IMG/VR virus record: IMGVR_UViG_3300003323_000257
Span: 1-64,000 of that record
Length of the DNA stretch: 64,000 nucleotides
From: a virus
Reading direction: 5' to 3' (one strand)
Positions 40,299 through 59,668 of the stretch are shown piece by piece (position 1 is the first letter of the stretch; the number at the start of each line of letters is the position of its first letter). A program made the translations under genes and the position numbers. The notes under the pieces are model-generated. The model had not been told where the DNA came from and made no database searches. It worked only from the letters and a program-made list of their open reading frames with translations.

Positions 40299-40798
40299 TC
40301 GAACTAAAACGTGTTCCATTTGTAGGGGATGAGCGCATCTTGAATATGGTAGATACAATCCGTCCACGTACCAAGATCAAGGTGGAGCATACCGCTGATG
40401 TATTCACAGGTAACATCGTTGTCATTGAAGGAACAGAATACAAAATTCGTTCAGTGAATCCTCACGGTCCTGTCTCCAAGGGCAACTGCTTCATTCGTGT
40501 TTCTCGCACCTCAAAAGAGAAACGTCTACAGGCGAAGGATCTGTGTGTCTACACGATCCTAAAGTTTCTTGCTGTTGCAAAGAAACCTGTGACGTGGTCT
40601 ATGGAAGTTCCAAAGGAAGATACCGTTGCCTATGCACTAACTGAGATAGATAGCACAAACGTTAAAGTTTTGCTCCGTAAGATGGCTAGCTTAAAAAGGC
40701 AAGGATACGTTAGCGGTTGTGCGTGTGGGTGTCACGGACGTTTTGAAATAACGGATCAAGGACATGCAGCATTAATTGAACTTCAAAACGAGATTTAA
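40295..40798 (+). CDS. winged-helix protein (167 aa)
   Basis: GGAGGTAAA precedes the ATG, which overlaps the previous stop. N-terminal beta domain (TGNIVVIEGTEYKIRSVNPH), then VYTILKFLAVAKKPVTW, VKVLLRKMASLKRQGYVSGC and FEITDQGHAAL, a winged-helix ending. C-A-C-G-C-H in the wing could bind metal. Immediately precedes DNA polymerase. Confidence 0.65.
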   Translation: MIELKRVPFVGDERILNMVDTIRPRTKIKVEHTADVFTGNIVVIEGTEYKIRSVNPHGPVSKGNCFIRVSRTSKEKRLQAKDLCVYTILKFLAVAKKPVTWSMEVPKEDTVAYALTEIDSTNVKVLLRKMASLKRQGYVSGCACGCHGRFEITDQGHAALIELQNEI

Positions 40799-40799
40799 T

Positions 40800-43700
40800 A
40801 TGCTTGAAACCAGATTTTTATTCCCGTTTGACCAAGAAGGCGCCTACGAACTAAGCATACCTAAATGTGCTTCCTGGGAATCTTCCAAGACCAAGATTTT
40901 GGTCTTGCTGCAGACGGTTGATGGGCGTGATCTTAAAGCCAAAGGTATGCTGGCCGACAAGATGGTGCGACAATGCTTCACCAATGCACTGAAATACGCG
41001 CAGACCTACGCACGGACCTACAAGGAGGAATTGAAGCAGTCTGCTTATGTGGTTGCTCCGTTCAATCGCAAACGCCACCTGAACCTTAAAGGTGCGGCTC
41101 GAAAAAGCGCTGAACTAGAATTCGCAGAACACGCCCACAAGCTGATTAAGAAGCTAAAGCCGACACACGTTCTGATTTCTGGTGACGAGGCGTTTCATGC
41201 CATGTGGCCTAAAATAGAACACCACACCTACAAGCGTGGCTGGGTTCATGATCTTGAATCGAAAGGTCATAAGGTAAAGGTTACATCGACTCTTGACTTC
41301 TCTCGTCTGTTGGAGAAAAAAGGTGAATACGCTAACCTGTTAGGTTTCTGGTGCAGGCACTTCGCGCACCTAATGCTCGGCCGTCACCCTCATTCGTTAA
41401 AAGGATTAGAACCTACCGTAAGGTACGTGGACACTATCGAGAAGTTCGACCGTCTCATGGACCGTATGGAAGACGAGTCTGAGTTTTCGACTGACACGGA
41501 GACACGTGACCTCTCTGTGCTAGGTAATGCCATCTATACGATTCAATTCGCCTTGGGGTCCAACCCAAGTGTTGGATACGTGATCCCAGTGGACCATCCT
41601 CTGCAGGATTGCTGGACCAAAGAACAGCGCAAGCATATCAAAAAACGACTGCGCAAGTTGTTTGCGTCTAAAAAGAAAAAGCTTATCGTCGGCATGAACA
41701 TCATGTATGACCTTAGGGTTATCCGCAGGTGTCTAAAGATTCCAATCATCTGGCATGACGTATGGGAGATCACCGCAGGTGAGCATGACCTGGACGAGAA
41801 CATTACAGAACTTGCCAACTTTAATTCCAAGCCAGGTAATCTGGCGGCCATCTTAGGTTCGTACGAATGTTCCTTCTATTGGGACAACTCTTTTGGTAAG
41901 GAAGATCGTTCAACCATCGCTGCTGTTAAGCCTACAGATAAAGGCTTCCAGCGATACGGAGCAATGGACGTTGTTAGTCTTCTGCACATCAAGCCACAAC
42001 AGATTAAAAGGGCGGCGCACCAATTCATCGAGGGACAGTCCTATAAGCCTTATTACGTAAGGCACATGATTGACCAAATGGGTGACACCGCCCATCAATT
42101 GTCACACCTTCGTGAAGACGGATCCTTGGTGGACGTTAATTATCTTCGACACCTGGTCTCCCCAGAAAGTCCTTTGAAGACTGAGATGAAACGACTGGCC
42201 TCGGAGTTTAGGCTGTTCCCTGAGGTGCAGGAGGCTAATCAGCGAATTCTTGGCGAATCTGGAATGAAGGCCAAAGGTTTGTTCGGAAAGTCCAAGGCTG
42301 CCGCCAAATGGGCGCTTTCGATGACCAAGCCTGCCCACCTTAGGGTTCTGTTCTTTGATGTGATGGGTATGGAGCCTGTCAACGAGACTGTCCAAGGAGA
42401 GAAATCAGTAGACAAGGCGTTCGTCACCGAAAACGAGGCGCGTAATCCTGTGGTGGCTGCTTATGGTGAGCACGCAAAACTTGGCAAATTGCTGTCAACC
42501 TATGCCAAGGGTTGGTTGAAGAAATTACGTTCCAATCGCGACTCAGCGGAAGATCAACATTTACGTGCTGACTATTCCTTCTTTGACGTAGCAACTGGAC
42601 GCCTGAACTCCAAGAATCCTAACCTGCAACAAATTCCTTCGCGTGGCAAGCTGGCAAAGATCATCAAAAAGATGTTCGTGGCCAAGAAGGGTACATTGCT
42701 GGTTCGTTACGACTATTCTGCACACGAGGTTCGTGTGTGGTCCTACGTAGGCAAGGATCAAATCCTCGCGGGCATCTTCAAGGTCGGTCAGAAGCTCCGA
42801 CAGCAATTCATTGTTGATCCCTCAGAAGAAAACGCGAAGGCTATCAAACTCAAGGGTGACATTCACATTCTGAACGTCAAACGGTTACTCGGCAAAATTG
42901 TCGATAAGAGCCATCCACTTCGAGACGCCATTAAAGCTGTTATCTTTGGTCTGCTGTACGGCAAGTCTGCTGAGACTTTAGGTGAGGACACGAAGCTCGG
43001 TGACAAGCAAGCTCTGATGAAAATCATCGGAGACAAAGAGGCTGACGTTAAGGCAAAGAAGGAAGCAGAGAAAAACCTGCGCGCACTTATGGCAGAGGAC
43101 CGCACTTCTTACGCGCAAGGTCTGATTGATAAGGTCTTCCAAGAATTTAAGGGAGGAGCCAAGTGGACCAACAAAATGAAAAAGTTGGTCGAGACCGAGT
43201 ACTACGTTTATAGCCCTATTGGAAGGATGCGCCGTCTGTACGCAGCAATGACTGGCGATCGCGGTATCGTTAATCAGCAGATTCGTAGGGGCTCTAACGC
43301 ACCTATTCAAGGGTTCGCTTCTGAGATTGGCATCAAGGCTGGCCGTTTAATTATGGAACTCTACTACAAGGAGCTGCCTAAGTTTTGTGAGTTCCTCGAT
43401 ATAGAATACGACGACTGGGAGTTGCGTGTTCCTTATAATCGAGTTGTCCATGATGCATCATACTATTCCGTTATGTATTCGATGGTAATTCCATTCACTC
43501 ACATATTACAATATGCTGCGACTTATGGAGTAACTGAAGTCTACGCAAAGGAGTTCAACGTTGAATTTCCTGTAGAGCCAGAGATCGAGATGGAATTTGG
43601 GGTCCGTGACGATTCCACCCACAAGTGGGACTGGAGTATTCCTAACATTGTTGACTCTATCGTTAAGTCAATTGACCAAGCCGAGGAACTGAATTTGTTG

Positions 43701-43871
43701 GAAGGTTCAAAAGATGAAGTCTTGAAGACCATTTTCGAACCATGGCGGAATAAGAAAATGAGGACTTACCTGCAGTCGAAATATCCGTTGCTAGGTGTAA
43801 AAAATCTTGACCGTCAGATAACAGAGGCACTTACCGTGGTTTATGGAAAGAAAGGGAAGGAGACTGCCTGA
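40800..43871 (+). CDS. family-A DNA polymerase with 3'-5' exonuclease
   Basis: 1023 aa. Residues about 30-195 form an extra N-terminal domain (KILVLLQTVDGRDLKAKGM ... THVLISGDEAFHAMW) that resembles the uracil-DNA-glycosylase fold found in front of some phage polymerases (weak). The exonuclease begins at TDTET (231-235). The polymerase has RADYSFFDVATGRLNS, NPNLQQIPSRG, motif A DYSAHEVR (638-645), motif B RDAIKAVIFGLLYG (708-721) and motif C HDA (884-886) with the catalytic Asp885 kept but the usual Glu replaced by Ala. An insertion after motif A (about 660-700) holds GDIHILNVKRLL. Start is the ATG 2 nt past the previous gene. Confidence 0.95.
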   Translation: MLETRFLFPFDQEGAYELSIPKCASWESSKTKILVLLQTVDGRDLKAKGMLADKMVRQCFTNALKYAQTYARTYKEELKQSAYVVAPFNRKRHLNLKGAARKSAELEFAEHAHKLIKKLKPTHVLISGDEAFHAMWPKIEHHTYKRGWVHDLESKGHKVKVTSTLDFSRLLEKKGEYANLLGFWCRHFAHLMLGRHPHSLKGLEPTVRYVDTIEKFDRLMDRMEDESEFSTDTETRDLSVLGNAIYTIQFALGSNPSVGYVIPVDHPLQDCWTKEQRKHIKKRLRKLFASKKKKLIVGMNIMYDLRVIRRCLKIPIIWHDVWEITAGEHDLDENITELANFNSKPGNLAAILGSYECSFYWDNSFGKEDRSTIAAVKPTDKGFQRYGAMDVVSLLHIKPQQIKRAAHQFIEGQSYKPYYVRHMIDQMGDTAHQLSHLREDGSLVDVNYLRHLVSPESPLKTEMKRLASEFRLFPEVQEANQRILGESGMKAKGLFGKSKAAAKWALSMTKPAHLRVLFFDVMGMEPVNETVQGEKSVDKAFVTENEARNPVVAAYGEHAKLGKLLSTYAKGWLKKLRSNRDSAEDQHLRADYSFFDVATGRLNSKNPNLQQIPSRGKLAKIIKKMFVAKKGTLLVRYDYSAHEVRVWSYVGKDQILAGIFKVGQKLRQQFIVDPSEENAKAIKLKGDIHILNVKRLLGKIVDKSHPLRDAIKAVIFGLLYGKSAETLGEDTKLGDKQALMKIIGDKEADVKAKKEAEKNLRALMAEDRTSYAQGLIDKVFQEFKGGAKWTNKMKKLVETEYYVYSPIGRMRRLYAAMTGDRGIVNQQIRRGSNAPIQGFASEIGIKAGRLIMELYYKELPKFCEFLDIEYDDWELRVPYNRVVHDASYYSVMYSMVIPFTHILQYAATYGVTEVYAKEFNVEFPVEPEIEMEFGVRDDSTHKWDWSIPNIVDSIVKSIDQAEELNLLEGSKDEVLKTIFEPWRNKKMRTYLQSKYPLLGVKNLDRQITEALTVVYGKKGKETA

Positions 43872-47569: not shown

Positions 47570-48019
47570 ATGCATTATTCGACTAAGACGTATGGGCATG
47601 AGATCGGCCTATCCTGTGTATTTCGTCAATGGAGGGCTGAAAGCCATTGCCGTTTGGCCCATGGTTATGCACTTTCCTTTAAGTTCATATTCGCTGCTGA
47701 AGAATTAGACCACAGAGGGTGGGTTTGCGATTTTGGAGGACTGAAACCTCTAAAAGGTATTCTTGAAGACACCTTCGACCATACTTTCCTGGTAGCTGAA
47801 GATGATCCTAAGTTCGATGTAATAATGGATCTTGATCGAGTTCACGGTATTGCAAAAGTAGTGCCTGTCCCTGCGGCTGGATGTGAACGCACTGCCGAAA
47901 TGGTCTACGAGGTGGCAGAACAATGGCTCAAGGATGCAGGGTACAGTCCTCGCGTTCGCTTGGTATCTGTGGAAGTTTCCGAACACGGTGCAAACAGCGC
48001 CATTTACACGAAAGATTAA
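47570..48019 (+). CDS. queD: 6-carboxytetrahydropterin synthase (QueD, phage type)
   Basis: 149 aa T-fold protein. FRQWRAESHCRLAHGYALSF, then DHRGWVCDFGGLKPLK, then LEDTFDHTFLV and the terminal SVEVSEHGANSAIY give the order of the QueD family. The metal site is the phage variant H-C-x-x-x-H-G-Y instead of H...HGH; the catalytic Asp-His (FDH) and Glu (VEVSEHG) are present. It turns dihydroneopterin triphosphate (made by FolE, 53657) into 6-carboxytetrahydropterin, the QueE substrate. Confidence 0.85.
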   Translation: MHYSTKTYGHEIGLSCVFRQWRAESHCRLAHGYALSFKFIFAAEELDHRGWVCDFGGLKPLKGILEDTFDHTFLVAEDDPKFDVIMDLDRVHGIAKVVPVPAAGCERTAEMVYEVAEQWLKDAGYSPRVRLVSVEVSEHGANSAIYTKD

Positions 48020-48020
48020 C

Positions 48021-48377
48021 ATGGGAAAGAAACTAGTTTGGGTAACCTTTCAGCGCAAAGGCTTTCACTTCTATCCAGGTGCACCTAGTGAGGTAGCATA
48101 TCTGCAGGATCGTCATCGCCATTTATTCAAGTTCAAGGTGAAGATTGAAGTCTTCCACGATGACCGTGAAATCGAGTTCCACATGTTCCTGAACAAGATC
48201 GAAAGCTGGTACGACAGCGGAGCACTGGAACTCAATCATAAGTCCTGTGAAATGCTGGCAGATGATCTGCACGCCAAGCTTAACAAAGAGTATGGCGGGA
48301 CCGGCAGGCCTCGCGAGTGCGTTATCGAGGTGTCTGAAGATGGGGAGTGTGGCGCTGAGTGCCACTACATGGTATGA
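48021..48377 (+). CDS. second T-fold (QueD-like) protein (118 aa)
   Basis: Start at MGKKLVWVTFQRKGFHFYPG, 1 nt after queD. PSEVAYLQDRHRHLFKFKVK, EVFHDDREIEFHMF, LNHKSCEMLADDL and VSEDGECGAECHY follow a phage/bacterial family annotated as QueD-like. HRHLF stands where HGH is in QueD. It may be a paralogue working with QueD or may act on a different pterin. Stop overlaps the next start. Confidence 0.65.
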   Translation: MGKKLVWVTFQRKGFHFYPGAPSEVAYLQDRHRHLFKFKVKIEVFHDDREIEFHMFLNKIESWYDSGALELNHKSCEMLADDLHAKLNKEYGGTGRPRECVIEVSEDGECGAECHYMV

Positions 48378-48919
48378 AAGACAGCTCCGCCGTAAAGGAC
48401 TTTACTGGCTTAAAGTTTCCGCCTGCATCGATTGAATACGCAATGTTCGAGGGCTTTGAGCAAGAAGGTCCGTTAAAAGGAAAGTTCACGTTGTTCATTG
48501 TAGGTCCTATGCCTTATGAAGATATCCTGGCTCAACTGTCCATTAAGGACTATGACCAAATTTATTTCGGTGCAGGTGGCCGCTTCGATTACCACCCAAA
48601 ATCTGTTGAAGTCGTTTACAAGAATATCAATTCGGACGTTATCGTTACTGTGGAGAATCCAGTAATAGATTTTGACTTGATGGACTCCTGCGAGAACTTA
48701 CATTGGATGTGCCCTATGGTCTGGCATGGTGAAGCTGTTCCGAATGCGATGGCATCTTTGGCCAAGCTCAGTGAAAAGCCACGCTACTATGATGACACCA
48801 TTATAGTGAAGATTGACACTGGGTTGGCCACCTATTCTGCTTACTACGGCGCTTTAAAGCACTCCAGCTATGGTGACTACTCTGCTGACAAGCTGATAAT
48901 GCAAAAGGAAAGACAATGA
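48374..48919 (+). CDS. unknown protein in the 7-deazaguanine cluster (181 aa)
   Basis: MKDSSAVKDFTGLKFPPASI; alpha/beta protein with QIYFGAGGRFDYHPKSVEVV, NPVIDFDLMDSCENLHWMCP and a Tyr-rich end (TYSAYYGALKHSSYGDYSAD). ATGA overlaps on both sides bind it tightly to the QueD-like and glycosyltransferase genes, so it probably acts in the same pathway. No family recognised. Confidence 0.75.
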   Translation: MKDSSAVKDFTGLKFPPASIEYAMFEGFEQEGPLKGKFTLFIVGPMPYEDILAQLSIKDYDQIYFGAGGRFDYHPKSVEVVYKNINSDVIVTVENPVIDFDLMDSCENLHWMCPMVWHGEAVPNAMASLAKLSEKPRYYDDTIIVKIDTGLATYSAYYGALKHSSYGDYSADKLIMQKERQ

Positions 48920-50085
48920 AGATTTTTTACATGGGACTAGAGAAGGTAGAGTCTCGCTACAGTCATCAGCTCACTGATTGGAACACCTCGGAATTCGAAC
49001 GCCTAGGTGTACCTTATCGAGTTGTGACTGGCTCGGAAATTCCAGCAGTGCAAGGTCAGATCGTTAATGGTTCGGTTCTTGATGCACACGGACGTACCTA
49101 CTATGCGATGACTCAAATGTCTTCCTTGGTAGCGATGATGCAAGCTGGCGAAGTAACTGAAAACGATGTGGTCTTCTTTGAGGACATGTTCACACCGGGT
49201 ATCGAAAGCCTGGCGTACATTATGGCCCAAACACCAGATAAATATCGGCCACGAGTGTACGTTCGTTGTCTGGCTCAAACTATTGATCCAGACGATTTCG
49301 TTCATCGTACTGGCATGTTTGATTGGATGCGACATTTCGAACTAATGTTGGATTCCTTCATCACTGGTATCCTGGTGGCTTCTGAAGAAATGGTTGCCCA
49401 TCTTCGTATCGCAGGATTCAAGTCCAACATTTATGTTACAGGTCTCCCGTTCGGCAAACAGGAAGTTCGTTCGCGAGTACCTCACTTGAAGGCTCTGTCC
49501 GATCGCCCTAAAGTTGTGTCATTCGCTTCACGCTGGGACGATGAAAAGCAACCATTCTTCTTCCTCCAAGTAATGGATGCGGTAAAGCAGTTGGATCCCT
49601 CTATCCAATTTCAGATCCTTACTGGAAACAAGACACTGAAGTCCAACAACGAGAAGGCCTTGCATGCTGCTAGGTCGTACGATAACAGTTGGCTTACCAT
49701 CAAAGAAGGTCTGACCAAGAATGAGTACTATCAGGAACTGGCAAACTCACGCTTGCTTATGAATACCGCACTCCAAGACTGGGTGTCAAACACAATCTCT
49801 GAAGCGGACACCCTAGGGTGTATGACTTTGTTCCCTGCGTATAGGTCCTTCCCTGAAACAGTCGGTAACCGTCCAGAGCACCTATATCTGCCATGGTCTG
49901 TGGAAGATGCTGCAGCAAAGCTGGTTAAACTAATTAATCTGGAAATGACCCAGCCTGACATTGGTAAGATTTCAGATTATCAAGACCGCTCAATTGTGAG
50001 GACAGTGAAAGTACTAAAGGGCGGCCAATCATGGGCGCGCAATACCTTAGGTTACCGTCAGCACGTCGCACGTACCAAATTCTAG
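48916..50085 (+). CDS. glycosyltransferase (GT-B fold, GT4-like)
   Basis: 389 aa. N-terminal Rossmann part with DVVFFEDMFTPGIESLAYIM and RVYVRCLAQTIDPDDF. The C-terminal half has KVVSFASRWDDEKQPFFFLQ (sugar-nucleotide domain start), ILTGN, YYQELANSRLLMNTALQDWV and NTISEADTLGCMTLFPAY, where the E-A-D...G-C pattern corresponds to the E-x7-E donor site of GT4 enzymes. Located inside the DNA-modification cluster, so a glycosylated 7-deazaguanine is a reasonable hypothesis. Confidence 0.7.
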   Translation: MKIFYMGLEKVESRYSHQLTDWNTSEFERLGVPYRVVTGSEIPAVQGQIVNGSVLDAHGRTYYAMTQMSSLVAMMQAGEVTENDVVFFEDMFTPGIESLAYIMAQTPDKYRPRVYVRCLAQTIDPDDFVHRTGMFDWMRHFELMLDSFITGILVASEEMVAHLRIAGFKSNIYVTGLPFGKQEVRSRVPHLKALSDRPKVVSFASRWDDEKQPFFFLQVMDAVKQLDPSIQFQILTGNKTLKSNNEKALHAARSYDNSWLTIKEGLTKNEYYQELANSRLLMNTALQDWVSNTISEADTLGCMTLFPAYRSFPETVGNRPEHLYLPWSVEDAAAKLVKLINLEMTQPDIGKISDYQDRSIVRTVKVLKGGQSWARNTLGYRQHVARTKF

Positions 50086-50100: not shown

Positions 50101-50129
50101 AGGCTGAGCCAGTCAAGGCTCAGCCTTTT
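50101..50129 (+). terminator. rho-independent terminator or leader hairpin
   Basis: AGGCTGAGCC and GGCTCAGCCT pair perfectly with a 6-nt loop, then TTTT. It lies downstream of the promoter-like box, so it could end the upstream operon and also stand in the leader of the next. Confidence 0.85.
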
Positions 50130-50147: not shown

Positions 50148-50948
50148 ATGGACGCACCAAAAATTCGTAAATTCGGCATTATCGGTACCTCTTGTGCCGG
50201 TAAGACCACTCTGGCCCATACCTTGGTCGGCCGTCTTAAGTCATACGGTATCCTTGCTGATGGCTTGTTTAGCCAGGACCGGAAGTTCTCGTTTGATAAA
50301 AAATATATCGAAACAGAGGAAGCTCAGAATTGGATGATCTGCAATCTGATCGCGAAAGAGGTGGACCTGAGCCTACATGGAGACGTGGAAGTGTTGATCA
50401 CTGATAGGACTCCTATTGATCTGTTTGCCTACTACTCTCACCAACATAACACGCGATTGAGCGAAGCTTGCTGGAACTACGCTAAAGAGTGGGCTAAGAC
50501 CTACGATGCCTTGTACTTTCTGGAACCTCTTCCTTACCAGGATGATGGAAAGCGCCCATCGGATGATTTCAGGCTGGCTGTAGACGCGGAACTTCGTTTC
50601 CTAATTAAGATGATTCCTAACGTGTATCAGTTAGGACGGCATGAAGTTATGAATGACATCCTAAAGAGGATTGGCTTTAAAAAGCCTGGAGTGAAGATGG
50701 ACTTTACTCCCAAGGATGCTCAGACTCTGGCCAACCATATTCAACGCTCCTTGGTGGTCAAGCGCTCGGAAATAAAGGATGCACTTTCTGATTACGACGT
50801 GTGGATCTTAGCAGGATTGGACTTCAACATTCAATCTGTAAGATCCTATGCATCAGGTCTGTTTGGAACTTTCGTTCCCCTGGAAATCAACCTTGCTGTT
50901 TCTACGGAAACTCTAACTTTTGAATTCGACCGTTATGACCCAGAATAA
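50148..50948 (+). CDS. P-loop kinase/ATPase (AAA_28-like)
   Basis: 266 aa. Walker A GTSCAGKT (13-20), ITDRTPIDLFAYYSHQHNTR as the lid-side motif of the AAA_28/NadR-type kinases, and Y-D-A-L-Y-F-L-E-P-L-P-Y. The C-terminal 60 residues are an extra domain. First gene of the DpdA operon; may phosphorylate a nucleoside or pathway intermediate. Not specific to any known modification step. Confidence 0.75.
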   Translation: MDAPKIRKFGIIGTSCAGKTTLAHTLVGRLKSYGILADGLFSQDRKFSFDKKYIETEEAQNWMICNLIAKEVDLSLHGDVEVLITDRTPIDLFAYYSHQHNTRLSEACWNYAKEWAKTYDALYFLEPLPYQDDGKRPSDDFRLAVDAELRFLIKMIPNVYQLGRHEVMNDILKRIGFKKPGVKMDFTPKDAQTLANHIQRSLVVKRSEIKDALSDYDVWILAGLDFNIQSVRSYASGLFGTFVPLEINLAVSTETLTFEFDRYDPE

Positions 50949-52359
50949 TAAAAGGCGGCCCTTTGGATACGTGTTGGCTGCCATAACTGCGCGCTCTCCA
51001 TCGTCTTTCATTGGCGTCAAATACGAAGACAACTCTAAGAAGCCGTATCTGTGGAAGCGAACACGCTTTAACGGATTGACCACTCATTGGACTCCTGATC
51101 GCACCATCTACTATGGCTCGCCTGGACCAAGGGCGAACGCTATTCCTACTGTTGACCTGGACGTAGTGTTTCCAATTAGCGCTCCGACAGAACCAGAGGT
51201 ATTGGTGAACGCCGGATTCGACTACGCTATGGCCTCTCCGCACCATGTTAGTGCTGGATCGGAGACCCGGAGAAACGATAAGGTAAAGCTGTTCTGTGAC
51301 TCAGGTGGGTTCCAGTTAATCAGTGGAGCCTTGGACTGGGTGGACATGGATGAATTGGCAGACACGTACAACAGAACCATCGATTACGGAATTGGCCTAG
51401 ACATACCTACGCCAGGTGAGCTACAGAAAGACTTCCTGATGCGTATGTGTGACGTGATGATCAAGAACAATCGCTATCTACGCAGCAAAGTTGTACCTGA
51501 AGTAGAGATTTATGACGTGAGTCACGGTAACACCTTACAGTTGAGAGCCAAGTTTTTGGATCGCGTATTGGCCGAAAAGAAGAAGGAACGTCGCGATGGT
51601 CAAGGATTGGCGATCGGTGCTATCGCGCAAAACTTTAAGGATGGCGGTCAGCGCCAAACTGTGGTTACTGGGTCGGTTAATCTCATATACACACTGTTAA
51701 AATCCAAAGGCCTGTACGAGAGATATCACGTATTAGGAACAACGAATTCGTTTTTTCAATTTCTGTACCACGTGCTTCTCCATTATGAAGTGGCCCCACA
51801 CATTACGGCGGACTCGACGTCCTACGTTTTGCCTGCGACGTATAATCTGATGATCGCCAACAAATTGGCTCCAGACCATTCCTTGTTATCGTTGGAGCTT
51901 CCAAAAGAGGAGCGCTCCTATACGTTGAACTGTAACTGTCCTGTGTGTTATCACGTAAAATATGCGCGTGAGTACCAGCTAATGTACATGACTAATACCT
52001 TACATGGTATGTATGCAACGGCCAACCAACGCGACCGAATCGAGGAAATAGCAGGAGAATACTTGAGGGGACGTATTGGACTAAATGAAGCGCTCTCGGT
52101 GTGTACCGGTGAACCTGCTTCGTCTCTCAAGGTGTACACAGCCATCGTAAAGTTTGCTATCGAGGCCGCCGAAAAAGGTTTTAAAGAAGCCTGGCTTTAC
52201 CATGAGAAAACATTGAATGGCTTAATGCGAGGTTCAGTCTCCACAGGCGGTTTGTTCAACAAAGGCACCAAGGCAATGTCTTCTAAGGCTAAGCGACTGG
52301 ACTCCATCCTTACTCGCTTTGAAGAGTTCCATGCAGCTAAAACAAAGGGACGCAAATGA
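50935..52359 (+). CDS. dpdA: DpdA-like DNA 7-deazaguanine transglycosylase
   Basis: 474 aa, related to tRNA-guanine transglycosylase. FCDSGGFQL (Asp122 as in the TGT D-S-G-G-F-Q motif), GIGLDIPTPG (Asp156), QGLAIGAIAQ, and a zinc site C333-x-C335-x2-C338 ... H357. DpdA enzymes swap guanine in DNA for a 7-deazaguanine base. Start at the ATG 14 nt inside the kinase gene. With QueE/QueD/FolE next to it, DNA rather than tRNA is the likely target. TGT-like phage proteins differ from DpdA subgroups, and the subgroup cannot be set by eye. Confidence 0.85.
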   Translation: MTQNNKRRPFGYVLAAITARSPSSFIGVKYEDNSKKPYLWKRTRFNGLTTHWTPDRTIYYGSPGPRANAIPTVDLDVVFPISAPTEPEVLVNAGFDYAMASPHHVSAGSETRRNDKVKLFCDSGGFQLISGALDWVDMDELADTYNRTIDYGIGLDIPTPGELQKDFLMRMCDVMIKNNRYLRSKVVPEVEIYDVSHGNTLQLRAKFLDRVLAEKKKERRDGQGLAIGAIAQNFKDGGQRQTVVTGSVNLIYTLLKSKGLYERYHVLGTTNSFFQFLYHVLLHYEVAPHITADSTSYVLPATYNLMIANKLAPDHSLLSLELPKEERSYTLNCNCPVCYHVKYAREYQLMYMTNTLHGMYATANQRDRIEEIAGEYLRGRIGLNEALSVCTGEPASSLKVYTAIVKFAIEAAEKGFKEAWLYHEKTLNGLMRGSVSTGGLFNKGTKAMSSKAKRLDSILTRFEEFHAAKTKGRK

Positions 52360-52847
52360 AGATACTCAAGGTTCGTAATCTGTACGGCTACCCTTCGTAC
52401 ACCGACGCCATTGTGGAGTACAGCAAGTCCATAGGAGCTTCTCTTATTCTGGATCGCACTTCTTTGTTGAAGGCTCCCAAGGAGTGGAGGATGTCCAATA
52501 AGCCAAAAATCTTGGTCGACTCCTTCACGGCCTTCCTGCAAAGCGAGGTTCCTATCATTGGCTACAAGAATGATAGAGGTGTGTATCTCAAGGATTCGCG
52601 ATTACCCCATCGAGAGCATTTGGTAGACAACGTATGTCAGGTGAAGATACCTTCCAATCTGAAGCGCGTTCCATCTAAAGTGCTGGCCTCCGCTTTGAAA
52701 GCCAAGGTCAAAAAAGACTTCCTGGACTCTATTGATCCTGAGGATCCTAACTATAAAGTGGTCAAGGGCATGATAACGATTCACCTCCCTGCGTCCTTAA
52801 AGGACCCATTCACCAAAGTAAATAAGAAGACAAAGGAGAACACATGA
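52356..52847 (+). CDS. unknown protein between dpdA and queE (163 aa)
   Basis: MKILKVRNLYGYPSYTDAIV; alpha/beta N-terminal half (SKSIGASLILDRTSLL, KILVDSFTAFLQSEVPIIGY), basic C-terminal part (KVLASALKAKVKKDFLDSI). ATGA overlaps to DpdA upstream and QueE downstream. No family recognised; position argues for a role in base insertion or tailoring. Confidence 0.75.
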   Translation: MKILKVRNLYGYPSYTDAIVEYSKSIGASLILDRTSLLKAPKEWRMSNKPKILVDSFTAFLQSEVPIIGYKNDRGVYLKDSRLPHREHLVDNVCQVKIPSNLKRVPSKVLASALKAKVKKDFLDSIDPEDPNYKVVKGMITIHLPASLKDPFTKVNKKTKENT

Positions 52848-53647
52848 AAACCATCATGATTCAAAACCAAGATCGAAATATGAGTGCACGAGATTACCCG
52901 GACTCCACATTTCTACGTGTAACCTCAATGTTCCGAACCCTGCAAGGTGAAGGTCCATTCGCAGGCTTTCCAGCCGTGTTCCTTCGACTATCTGGATGTA
53001 ACTATGGTAGCAAAACGGATATGTGCACCTGGTGTGATACTTCCTTCCAATTTGACCATGGGCAGCTGCATACGATTGACCAGGTAGTAGCAGAGCTAAA
53101 TCATTTGGAAGGACGTCAGCCTTCTGACATTCTGGTAATCACTGGAGGGGAACCAACTCTTCAAAAAACTTTGCTAGGACTGATTTCAAAGGTATGGGCC
53201 AACAAATATTTCAAAACCATTCAAGTGGAAACCAATGGTACGCAGCCAAAGTTCTTTGAAGATGCTGAAGAGATGGGTCTCCTAGGTAAGGATAAAGTCA
53301 CCTTTGTAGTCTCACCGAAAGCTAACGAACGGCTCAAGAAATATCCTCAGGTTCACCCTAAGGTTAAATGGTGGGCGGATTGCTATAAGTTTGTCCTGTC
53401 TGCTGAAGAAGGTGACGCGCATCACGAAATTCCTGAATGGGCATTAACCGAGAAACATAAGCCTGTGTATGTAAGCCCTATGACAGTATACCTAAAACCA
53501 TATCAGGGTGAGGTGTCCTCTATTTGGGACGCTGACCTGGTGGATCAGGAACGCACCGCAGCAAACTACGCATACGCCGCTGCTTACGCCTTAAAACATA
53601 ACCTGCGTCTGAGTGTGCAAATGCACACCCTGACTGCCATAGCTTAA
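52844..53647 (+). CDS. queE: 7-carboxy-7-deazaguanine synthase (QueE)
   Basis: 267 aa. Radical-SAM enzyme with QGEG (34-37), cluster cysteines C52-x8-C61-x2-C64 (CNYGSKTDMCTWC), GGEP (101-104) and ETNGTQ. The long loop in the cysteine motif is the QueE variant. Converts 6-carboxytetrahydropterin to CDG. Ends with QMHTLTAIA as in family members. Confidence 0.93.
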   Translation: MKTIMIQNQDRNMSARDYPDSTFLRVTSMFRTLQGEGPFAGFPAVFLRLSGCNYGSKTDMCTWCDTSFQFDHGQLHTIDQVVAELNHLEGRQPSDILVITGGEPTLQKTLLGLISKVWANKYFKTIQVETNGTQPKFFEDAEEMGLLGKDKVTFVVSPKANERLKKYPQVHPKVKWWADCYKFVLSAEEGDAHHEIPEWALTEKHKPVYVSPMTVYLKPYQGEVSSIWDADLVDQERTAANYAYAAAYALKHNLRLSVQMHTLTAIA

Positions 53648-53656
53648 AGGACAAAC

Positions 53657-54325
53657 ATGAGTAAGACCAACGCTCAACTGGGACAGCAGATACACAAACA
53701 CCTGGAGGTGCTAGGTATCGAGACCCCTATGTTTGAAAATTCTCCGTCCGACCAGCTTAATATGATTACCAAGCTGGATCGCGTAGAGAAGCATTTTGCG
53801 GAGATCATGAAGTTACTCCAACTTAATCTTAATGATGACTCTCTAAGAGAGACACCAAGGCGAGTGGCAAAAATGTTTTTGAACGAGATTTTCTCCGGTC
53901 TTGATTACAATAATTTCCCTAAGTGCACCGTGATCGATAACAAGATGGGTGCTGACGAAATGGTGATCGAACGTAACATCACCATGAACTCCACTTGTGA
54001 ACATCATCTGTTGCCTATTATCGGGAAGGCACACGTAGCATACATTCCAGGTGCTAAGGTACTTGGTCTGTCCAAGATGAATCGGATTGTTCAGTTCTTC
54101 GCTGCACGTCCTCAAGTTCAGGAACGGTTGACTCTGCAAATTCATGCCGCCCTGTGTTTCATTCTTGAAACCAAAGACGTTGCGGTGGTAATCGAAGCCG
54201 AGCATATGTGTGTAAAGACCAGGGGCGTAGAGGACGCTTGCAGTGACACAGTGACTTCCAAAGTAAGTGGTGTATTCCGTAACCCAGTAACTCGTAATGA
54301 GTTCATCACCTTTACACGAAAATGA
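53657..54325 (+). CDS. folE: GTP cyclohydrolase I
   Basis: 222 aa. [24 protein letters not shown] (C114, H116/H117), [23 protein letters not shown] (C185) and the terminal R-N-P-V-T-R-N-E-F are the FolE signatures, with complete zinc ligands. It supplies dihydroneopterin triphosphate to QueD. Ribosome site AAAGGACAAAC; coupled to the HAD gene downstream. Confidence 0.95.
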
Positions 54326-54843
54326 GCATACACATAACTGAACACGGCCGTGATCTGGTGATCCTAGATATCGACGGCTGTTTATTGGACTCGGACTCGC
54401 GTCTACCGCATTTGCTGGCAGGTGATCGTGAGACCTACGACTCTCTCCATCCCACGGATCGTACGTGGCCGGCAGGCCATGCAGTGTACCGCATGTTTCA
54501 ACGCCATCCAGACGTAACGGTGTTGTTCGTTACTGCTAGGCAGGAAAATGCCAGGCACTATACAATGGAGCAGCTTAACCGAGCATTAGGTAGCAGCTCT
54601 CCTGTTATGCCTTGGCAACTGCTGATGCGCCCTACAGGGTGTTCCGATCCAGATATTATCTTGAAGCCTCGTTTGATAGAGGAGGCTGGATGGTCTTTGG
54701 AGCGTATTCTTGTGGTAGTTGAAGACAGCGACGCCACTGTTGCTATGTGGCGATCCAAAGGAATTGAATGTTGGCAGCCGCGTTCAAGCACCCACAACAT
54801 AAACACAGTGCAGCTGGCAATCGATTTAAACACTAGTAAATAA
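54322..54843 (+). CDS. HAD-family phosphatase
   Basis: 173 aa. Motif I DIDGCLLD (16-23), motif II VTAR, motif [23 protein letters not shown]. Resembles the phosphatase domain of T4 polynucleotide kinase/phosphatase and related phage phosphatases. It is the last gene of the deazaguanine operon and could act on a nucleotide or pterin phosphate or on DNA 3' ends. Stop overlaps the motif at 54833. Confidence 0.8.
54833..54842 (+). promoter_or_regulatory. CTAGTAAATA promoter-like motif
   Basis: Exact copy overlapping the stop of the HAD gene, 37 nt before the next start (54880). Confidence 0.6.
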
Positions 54844-58540: not shown

Positions 58541-58749
58541 CTGACACCGAAGCTCTTCACCGACTTTCCATTGGTGAAACCTTATACGTAGGCATCTGGG
58601 CGTACACGCGAAGTAGCCGCTACATGACGTGTGGGTGCTGCGACGACTCGGACGACTTCGAGGACATTGACGAGGCTATGGACAGCCTGCGCAAATGCAC
58701 CGACAACTTCACTCAATCATTCATCAATCTAAAGGAAGACAATGAGTAA
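58525..58749 (+). CDS. hypothetical protein with Cys cluster (74 aa)
   Basis: C-G-C-C near residue 36 followed by an acidic stretch (DDSDDFEDIDEAMDSLRK). Overlaps neighbours by 16 and 8 nt. May be a small metal-binding protein. Confidence 0.7.
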   Translation: MSRILTDTEALHRLSIGETLYVGIWAYTRSSRYMTCGCCDDSDDFEDIDEAMDSLRKCTDNFTQSFINLKEDNE

Positions 58750-59668
58750 CTTACTGACCGACCGTGAGAATCAAATCAAAGTTAAGATCATCGCTGATTC
58801 CGTGGCACCGAATGGTGCGCGAATCACAAGCTACGAACTGGAATACCATCGCTACATTCATGCTGAATTCATGACGCACCGTGTGTTCTCCAAGAATGCG
58901 GCATCGTCGCGAGCTATCCCTGCCGCCAAACTTCTTCAATTGGTGCGAGATGAACCTATGCTGCCTGTACACCTCGGTATGAATCAGGGCGGCATGCAGG
59001 CTCAGCAGGAACTTCCGCCTGACGTACAGCAACGCATTCTGGATGTATGGGAAGAACTGGGCGGCATCATCGCTGACAAGGTGGAGTACTTGGCCTCGTT
59101 GGGTCTGCACAAGCAGGTTGTAAATCGTCCACTGGAGTCCATGCTGCCGATCAAGGTAATCGCCACAGGTACCGAGTACAACAACTTCTTCGAACTACGC
59201 GATTCCCAATATGCGCAGCCGGAGTTTCGCGTCCTGGCGCACAAGATGCGTGTGGCACGTGACGAATCAACTCCTACTCCATTAGCATACGGCGAATGGC
59301 ATCTTCCATACGTTACTACTGAAGATCGCCTGTGGGCAAAAATCAATGTTAAGAATGTCGACCGTACTCTTTGCTGGCTTTCGTCTGCGCGTTGTGCCCG
59401 TGTAACCCACGCACTAGGTGGCCTAACTTCCAAGACAATTGAGGAAGAGATCGGAAAAGGCAAGGAGTTGTTTGCTGTCAAACATATGAGTCCGTTTGAG
59501 CACATTGCTACACCTGCAGACTTCAGTACAGCTACTGAAGATGATGTAAAGGCTCTGATTGACCACCTGGCAACACCTGAATCAACTTGTCCTGCTGTCT
59601 TCGACGTACGCAATCTGCGCGGTTGGCGCTCCATGCGCTCCTACATCGAAAACGGTGAACTTCAATGA
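58742..59668 (+). CDS. thyX: flavin-dependent thymidylate synthase-like (ThyX)
   Basis: 308 aa. MTHRVFSKNAASSRAIP (44-60) is the ThyX R-H-R-x7-S counterpart (here T-H-R...S-x-N-x-x-S-S-R). The Q/R-rich substrate region and HMSPFEHIATP follow; NLRGWRSMRSYIE is the typical C-terminal signature. It makes dTMP using methylenetetrahydrofolate, NADPH and FAD. Slightly divergent motif and longer than the usual 220-250 aa. Confidence 0.88.
   Translation: MSNLLTDRENQIKVKIIADSVAPNGARITSYELEYHRYIHAEFMTHRVFSKNAASSRAIPAAKLLQLVRDEPMLPVHLGMNQGGMQAQQELPPDVQQRILDVWEELGGIIADKVEYLASLGLHKQVVNRPLESMLPIKVIATGTEYNNFFELRDSQYAQPEFRVLAHKMRVARDESTPTPLAYGEWHLPYVTTEDRLWAKINVKNVDRTLCWLSSARCARVTHALGGLTSKTIEEEIGKGKELFAVKHMSPFEHIATPADFSTATEDDVKALIDHLATPESTCPAVFDVRNLRGWRSMRSYIENGELQ

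Follow-up and report, generated by a model that had tools for sequence, protein, structure and literature searches.

The modification of DNA with 7-deazaguanines is already known in phages, and variants at the stage of 7-carboxy-7-deazaguanine (CDG) have been considered possible, with regard to phage Bipper (Hutinet 2019, PMC6884629). In that paper no glycosylated derivative is described for the phage 7-deazaguanine systems. Systems of the FolE-QueD-QueE-QueC-DpdA type, represented by Enterobacteria phage 9g, CAjan, Rosebush and Vibrio phage nt-1, have FolE, QueD, QueE and the TGT-like protein DpdA in one locus. The same genes stand together in the window, a stretch of 64,000 nucleotides which is part of a 133,922-base IMG/VR record. 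Unlike the described systems, however, the window has no detected QueC or amidotransferase, and it has a glycosyltransferase (GT), a second QueD-like protein (p17812) and a further protein, u186.

The most direct argument that the base is the target of the GT is a comparison with Achromobacter phage Motura. The genes of Motura are arranged in the order QueD, QueC, an asparagine-synthetase-like (AsnB) gene, DpdA, a small gene, QueE, a small gene and FolE. Homologues of QueD, DpdA, QueE and FolE occur in the same order in the window, with identities of 66% for QueD, 49% for QueE, 60% for FolE and 33% for DpdA, the Motura counterpart of which is annotated as ‘tRNA guanine transglycosylase’. In contrast, the slot taken up in Motura by QueC and the AsnB-like gene is held here by p17812, u186, the GT and a kinase-like gene.

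No match to QueC (PF06508) was found across the 133.9 kb record, which is possibly incomplete, and among 30 long contigs carrying relatives of the GT, 24 had none and the remaining six gave weak partial matches. Since QueC was not found, it is proposed that CDG is not converted to preQ0. With QueC likewise missing from the relatives, weak partial matches aside, preQ0 and preQ1 are unlikely products and CDG or a derivative is expected. Of the two substrates named in the sequence-only reading, CDG and preQ1, the first is thus retained and the second has become improbable. Taken together, the exchange of genes in the Motura slot and the lack of a detectable QueC suggest that the p17812-u186-GT block probably carries out the tailoring step performed elsewhere by QueC and the amidotransferase. 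The GT itself is considered a probable tailoring enzyme of phage 7-deazaguanine DNA modification, putting a sugar on a CDG-derived 7-deazaguanine, with appreciable room left for doubt; we infer the sugar transfer itself, along with its donor, its acceptor atom and its taking place at the level of DNA.

Organization of the locus

Table 1. Features of the deazaguanine locus, numbered from the first letter of the window.
Feature	Position	Strand	Evidence
QueD, 6-carboxytetrahydropterin synthase homologue, first gene of the chain	47570..48019	+	PF01242, 61.6 bits (cut-off 22.4), E 8.9e-17; phrog_2389, E 2.5e-41
p17812, small QueD-like protein, 118 aa, phrog_17812	48021..48377	+	
u186, conserved partner, 181 aa, best start ATG 48374	48374..48919	+	
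GT, GT4-like with GT-B fold, 389 aa, ATG start	48916..50085	+	AF2 structure, motifs
Terminator-like hairpin with TTTT tail, just past the GT stop	50101..50126	+	folding energy
P-loop kinase-like protein, AAA_28, thymidylate-kinase-like phrog_2107	50148..50948	+	PF13521, 37 bits (over cut-off); phrog_2107, E 4.2e-12
DpdA-like / TGT-like transglycosylase	50935..52359	+	motifs, Motura TGT, hhalign
u163, between DpdA and QueE	52356..52847	+	weak match to the same-slot Motura gene, 26.6 bits, E 1e-4
QueE, 7-carboxy-7-deazaguanine synthase	52844..53647	+	phrog_2076, E 6.4e-43; radical SAM over cut-off
FolE, GTP cyclohydrolase I	53657..54325	+	PF01227, E 3.6e-62; NCBIfam folE over cut-off

QueD, p17812, u186 and the GT form, in this order, a coupled chain of four genes (Table 1). 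p17812 begins 1 nt past the end of QueD, the start of u186 overlaps the stop of p17812 by an ATGA, and a second ATGA, at 48916-48919, makes a 4-nt overlap between the start of the GT and the stop upstream of it. It had been claimed from the sequence that this overlap couples the GT to a QueD-like cluster; the overlap and the coupled chain are confirmed, with the correction that the direct neighbour of the GT is u186 and not QueD.

At least 151 stretches in IMG/VR are homologous to the GT, the best 80 of them with 49-57% identity over the full length, and the open reading frame is therefore not a chance one. Searched with its own profile, the record contains the GT as a single copy; a search of the record with Pfam GT families was insensitive, missing even this gene. 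A near-identity DNA search of the region against phage records gave zero matches. In cellular genomes only four loci with GT relatives were found, all on MAG contigs. All four are flanked by p17812 and a TGT-like gene, which belong to the phage cassette, and the GT therefore shows no sign of a host origin.

The two genes between QueD and the GT resemble, to differing degrees, enzymes of the CDG pathway. p17812, a Zn protein, shares three His (H16, H32, H34) and a Glu (E106) with the T-fold pattern of QueD and has an invariant SCE, but it lacks a counterpart to the catalytic Cys of QueD; its profile comparison with QueD (hhalign, only 61-69% probability) is suggestive only of a relation between the two. 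u186 matches the cluster-6 profile with an E value of 4.6e-10. Its AF2 model is weak (pLDDT 64.5) and the top three Foldseek matches of this model are all QueE, at non-significant E values of 0.03-0.18. A conserved set of Fe-S cysteines was not found in u186, which is possibly a QueE-derived domain without them.

The hairpin that follows the GT has a perfect 10-bp stem and a folding energy of -20.3 kcal/mol (z -5.85), with none of 200 shuffled sequences being as stable. It stands between the GT and the kinase-DpdA-QueE-FolE unit, which counts against the favoured explanation, and is a putative divider of the deazaguanine locus into two transcription units. A scan for promoters and terminators returned fewer sites than in shuffled sequences, and missed this hairpin because its T tail is just four long.

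The DpdA reading frame opens at TTG 50920, with ATG 50935 the likelier start. The protein contains the motifs DSGGFQ, LDIPTP and CNCPVC, and is aligned by hhalign with the TGT-like cluster of the GT relatives at 95.5% (E 1.5e-8); in the TGT-like families of these relatives DSGG is present in every sequence (79 of 79). Among the curated families of Pfam, PHROG and NCBIfam none was matched over cut-off. The top match in the PDB, and thus the nearest solved relative, is the archaeosine tRNA-guanine transglycosylase 1iq8, at a non-significant E value of 0.067. This resemblance, together with the occurrence of glycosylated queuosine in animals, would be in keeping with a pathway acting on tRNA, where a deazaguanine inserted by the TGT-like protein would be turned by the GT into a sugar-bearing queuosine-like base comparable to mannosyl- or galactosyl-queuosine. 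Such a pathway is highly improbable here, however, as QueA, QueG and QueH are, according to the literature, not found in phages of this kind, and the phage TGT homologues of such clusters (DpdA) act on DNA (Hutinet 2019, PMC6884629).

Coupled to FolE by an ATGA is a PNKP-type HAD phosphatase domain without the kinase part (54322-54843). The same phage encodes a ThyX-type thymidylate synthase (58742-59668; PF02511 over cut-off) and a family A DNA polymerase (40776-43871).

The glycosyltransferase and its possible substrates

The AF2 model of the GT, built with 34 sequences (pLDDT 84.4, pTM 0.84), has a two-Rossmann GT-B fold. Retaining GT4 enzymes match it best, with Z-scores of 23-27 over 297-347 residues, so that the identification of a GT-B glycosyltransferase, made originally from the sequence, is upheld by the structure. 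BshA, MshA, sucrose-phosphate synthase, SenB and tetrahydrobiopterin glucosyltransferase are among these matches, and since they are tied, the fold sets the class of the enzyme and not its substrate. The score against Pfam Glyco_trans_1_4 (PF13692) is 17.3 bits, below the cut-off of 27; the Pfam gathering cut-off is a threshold of sensitivity, and the class assignment is based on structure and motifs. Neither the GT sequence nor the GT profile had a meaningful match in the PDB.

R206, K211 and D288-x7-E296 are invariant in the 34 GT sequences. The R/K phosphate contacts are thereby present, and the donor motif is a D-x7-E variant of the GT4 E-x7-E, which has its canonical form in a sister group typified by the GT of Acidovorax phage ACP17. 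In an alignment at 20% identity, the catalytic His of the GT4 N-domain falls on Leu119 in the subfamily to which the window GT belongs; the same position is His in the GTs of ACP17, Phosso and PAC2. With Leu119 aligned to this His, activity of the GT is not guaranteed, which counts against the favoured explanation.

Tetrahydrobiopterin glucosyltransferases (5zes, 5ze7 and 9v0l) are among the best fold matches, as are BshA, MshA and SenB. It could be argued on this ground that the acceptor is a free small molecule produced by FolE and QueD, for example a pterin or unincorporated deazaguanine, and that the product is a metabolite and not DNA. The cyanobacterial enzymes of this kind glycosylate pterin, and one relative infects Synechococcus elongatus. 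However, the Z-scores of the cyanobacterial enzyme BGluT (23.6-25.0) are tied with those of many GT4 enzymes and do not discriminate, and no PDB chain of the tetrahydrobiopterin-glucosyltransferase kind matches the GT by sequence. Moreover, nearly every GT locus has QueE and TGT-like genes, for which the making of a pterin glycoside would have no use, and a free acceptor is accordingly judged unlikely.

A different base in DNA, such as a hydroxymethylpyrimidine modified in parallel to the deazaguanine pathway, is also conceivable as the substrate, given that the known phage DNA glucosyltransferases use hydroxymethylated pyrimidines and that the DNA alpha-GT of cyanophage S-TIM5 is found among the BFVD fold matches, at rank 40. 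This is nevertheless very unlikely, for the GT is linked to deazaguanine genes and the proteins scanned, which cover part of the record, included no dCMP or dUMP hydroxymethylase. The T4-type DNA glucosyltransferase family is absent among the Pfam and PHROG hits of the GT.

Gene company of the GT in related phages

The best 80 of the at least 151 GT loci were kept and, with Synechococcus phage BUCT-ZZ01 and the window included, were dereplicated at 95% to 53 loci, 32 of which have full flanks. No more than 10 kb from the GT, all of these 32 have p17812; FolE is present in 30, TGT-like genes are present in 29 (and those of a second family in 2), QueE and GalE in 27 each, PRTase in 26, a sliding-clamp gene in 29 and a DNA polymerase gene in 28, all counted on the same strand; the GT contigs are mutually related, and these are counts of kin loci. 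Of the 53 dereplicated loci, 52 have p17812 at a distance of at most 10 kb from the GT, and 44 contain the u186 family. QueE was detected in 30 of 30 long GT contigs from IMG/VR (55-251 kb) at E values of 3e-47 or below. As a yardstick, it occurs in 139, and FolE in 392, of 50,697 phage records searched at BLAST sensitivity.

Because the contigs are interrelated, the independence of gene orders is a stronger argument than the counts. The orders differ between BUCT-ZZ01, X1, the PAC2/PA5oct group, ACP17 and Phosso with the company of the GT staying constant, and four of these five lineages (X1, PAC2/PA5oct, ACP17 and Phosso) carry a second GT subfamily, about 20% identical to the window GT. Linkage of the GT to the deazaguanine pathway is strongly supported. 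The earlier argument that its place in the operon speaks for the base has gained in weight, since the linkage to FolE, QueE, QueD-like and TGT-like genes persists despite varied gene orders and is shared by the two divergent GT subfamilies.

The partnership with p17812 is less even. Of 20 annotated phage records containing a relative of the GT, 16 also have p17812, the others being the Ep032/PhiXhv group; p17812 is present in 27 records overall. It is found as well in deazaguanine phages in which no GT was detected next to it, among them phiST, RHph_I1_18, Bakedbeans and MA9V-3, so that p17812 acts before the GT or independently of it. The association is therefore one-sided, and this counts against the favoured explanation.

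In Xanthomonas phage PhiXhv-12 a remote relative of the GT stands with a glutamine-fructose-6-phosphate aminotransferase and a GlcNAc-malate deacetylase in a bacillithiol-like arrangement (L004:7138-8852), with a TGT-like gene elsewhere in the genome. Phage GT4 enzymes often target surface sugars, and a weakly related GT that adjoins sugar-metabolism genes lends something to the idea that the window GT acts on a surface polysaccharide of the host or virion and is in the locus by chance. Chance, however, fits poorly with a deazaguanine linkage that survives many rearrangements and two divergent subfamilies, in loci where polymerase and clamp genes adjoin, and a surface role is regarded as distinctly improbable.

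In most relatives a GalE-type UDP-glucose 4-epimerase, scoring over the NCBIfam cut-off, is coupled straight downstream of the GT (L028:11124-12152, L045:9022-10056), with a median overlap of 43 nt if the longest open reading frames are taken. Since so many relatives have a GT-coupled GalE, the donor is most likely a UDP-hexose, for instance UDP-galactose. A search of the 133.9 kb record to which the window belongs turned up neither GalE nor another epimerase, which counts against the favoured explanation; a UDP-sugar donor would in this phage be supplied by the host.

GT loci recurrently hold a GMP reductase (L013:14313-15359) and a purine PRTase (L001:9075-9545), which together possibly recycle the guanine freed by base exchange, as well as a queuosine-precursor transporter of the preQ0/preQ1 type (L031:15197-15838), over the TIGR00697 cut-off. 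BUCT-ZZ01 has a second, distantly related GT of 447 aa in its deazaguanine cluster (L001:11004-12347), as does one further locus (L007); in BUCT-ZZ01 a disaccharide or a second sugar is conceivable. Near the GT in 16 loci, again among the best 80 of at least 151, is a 341-aa protein that looks amidinotransferase-like by eye; the example at L058:17152-18174 has no Pfam or NCBIfam hit and matches only phrog_25854, of unknown function.

A proposed branch at CDG and its relation to known systems

In the proposed pathway, FolE, QueD and QueE would make CDG, which p17812 and/or u186 would then modify. DpdA would insert the 7-deazaguanine base into DNA in exchange for guanine, and the GT, as a retaining GT4-type enzyme, would move a sugar to the deazaguanine from a nucleotide-sugar donor. 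Glycosylation would most likely take place once the base is already in DNA, as it does with the T4 glucosyltransferases acting on hydroxymethylcytosine. Candidate acceptors are the C7 carboxylate of CDG and the product of p17812 or u186. Transfer to the carboxylate would give an acyl glycoside; were this group taken off by p17812, a C-glycoside could form at C7 itself. CDG is without a hydroxyl, and this counts against the favoured explanation.

Cui et al. reportedly named, in 2023, a CDG decarboxylase DpdL, and also DpdA3. As a lead, p17812, which is present in Cellulophaga phage phiST, might be DpdL. A literature search of incomplete coverage for DpdL or a CDG decarboxylase found none.

It is tentatively suggested, as a possibility extending beyond this phage, that there is a widespread phage hypermodification in which a sugar-bearing 7-deazaguanine replaces guanine by way of a branch off the known pathway at CDG. 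QueC would be replaced in this branch by a QueD-derived Zn protein, a possibly QueE-derived protein, a GT4 enzyme and often a UDP-sugar epimerase of the phage’s own, with the sugar placed on the C7 carboxylate or at C7 as a C-glycoside.

To our knowledge, the sugar-bearing bases of phage DNA are pyrimidines, and the known 7-deazaguanines carry small C7 groups only. In a literature search of incomplete coverage, which does not prove absence, no sugar-bearing deazaguanine in phage DNA was described. If the proposal is true, a glycosylated 7-deazaguanine would unite the sugar and deazaguanine strategies, and could by its bulk shield the DNA from restriction and CRISPR nucleases. It would also assign a role to a family of GTs which occurs in many aquatic phage contigs and in isolates, where the annotation is usually ‘hypothetical protein’.

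The window GT is predicted to resemble the alpha and beta DNA glucosyltransferases of T4 in being a phage GT-B enzyme that decorates a modified DNA base. It differs from them in its expected base, a deazaguanine and not hydroxymethylcytosine, and in having no Pfam or PHROG match to them. With BshA, MshA, SenB and cyanobacterial BGluT it shares the fold over the whole chain (Z 23-27) and donor motifs of the R/K and E-x7-E-like kind, whereas identity is only 8-16%, the N-domain His aligns to a Leu and the gene context is another. The GTs of Acidovorax phage ACP17, Pseudomonas phage PA5oct and Sinorhizobium phage Phosso are annotated as hypothetical protein or plain glycosyltransferase. These are about 20% identical to the window GT and differ from it in a canonical E-x7-E and, as aligned, in having the GT4 His; like it, they adjoin p17812, FolE, QueE and usually a TGT-like gene.
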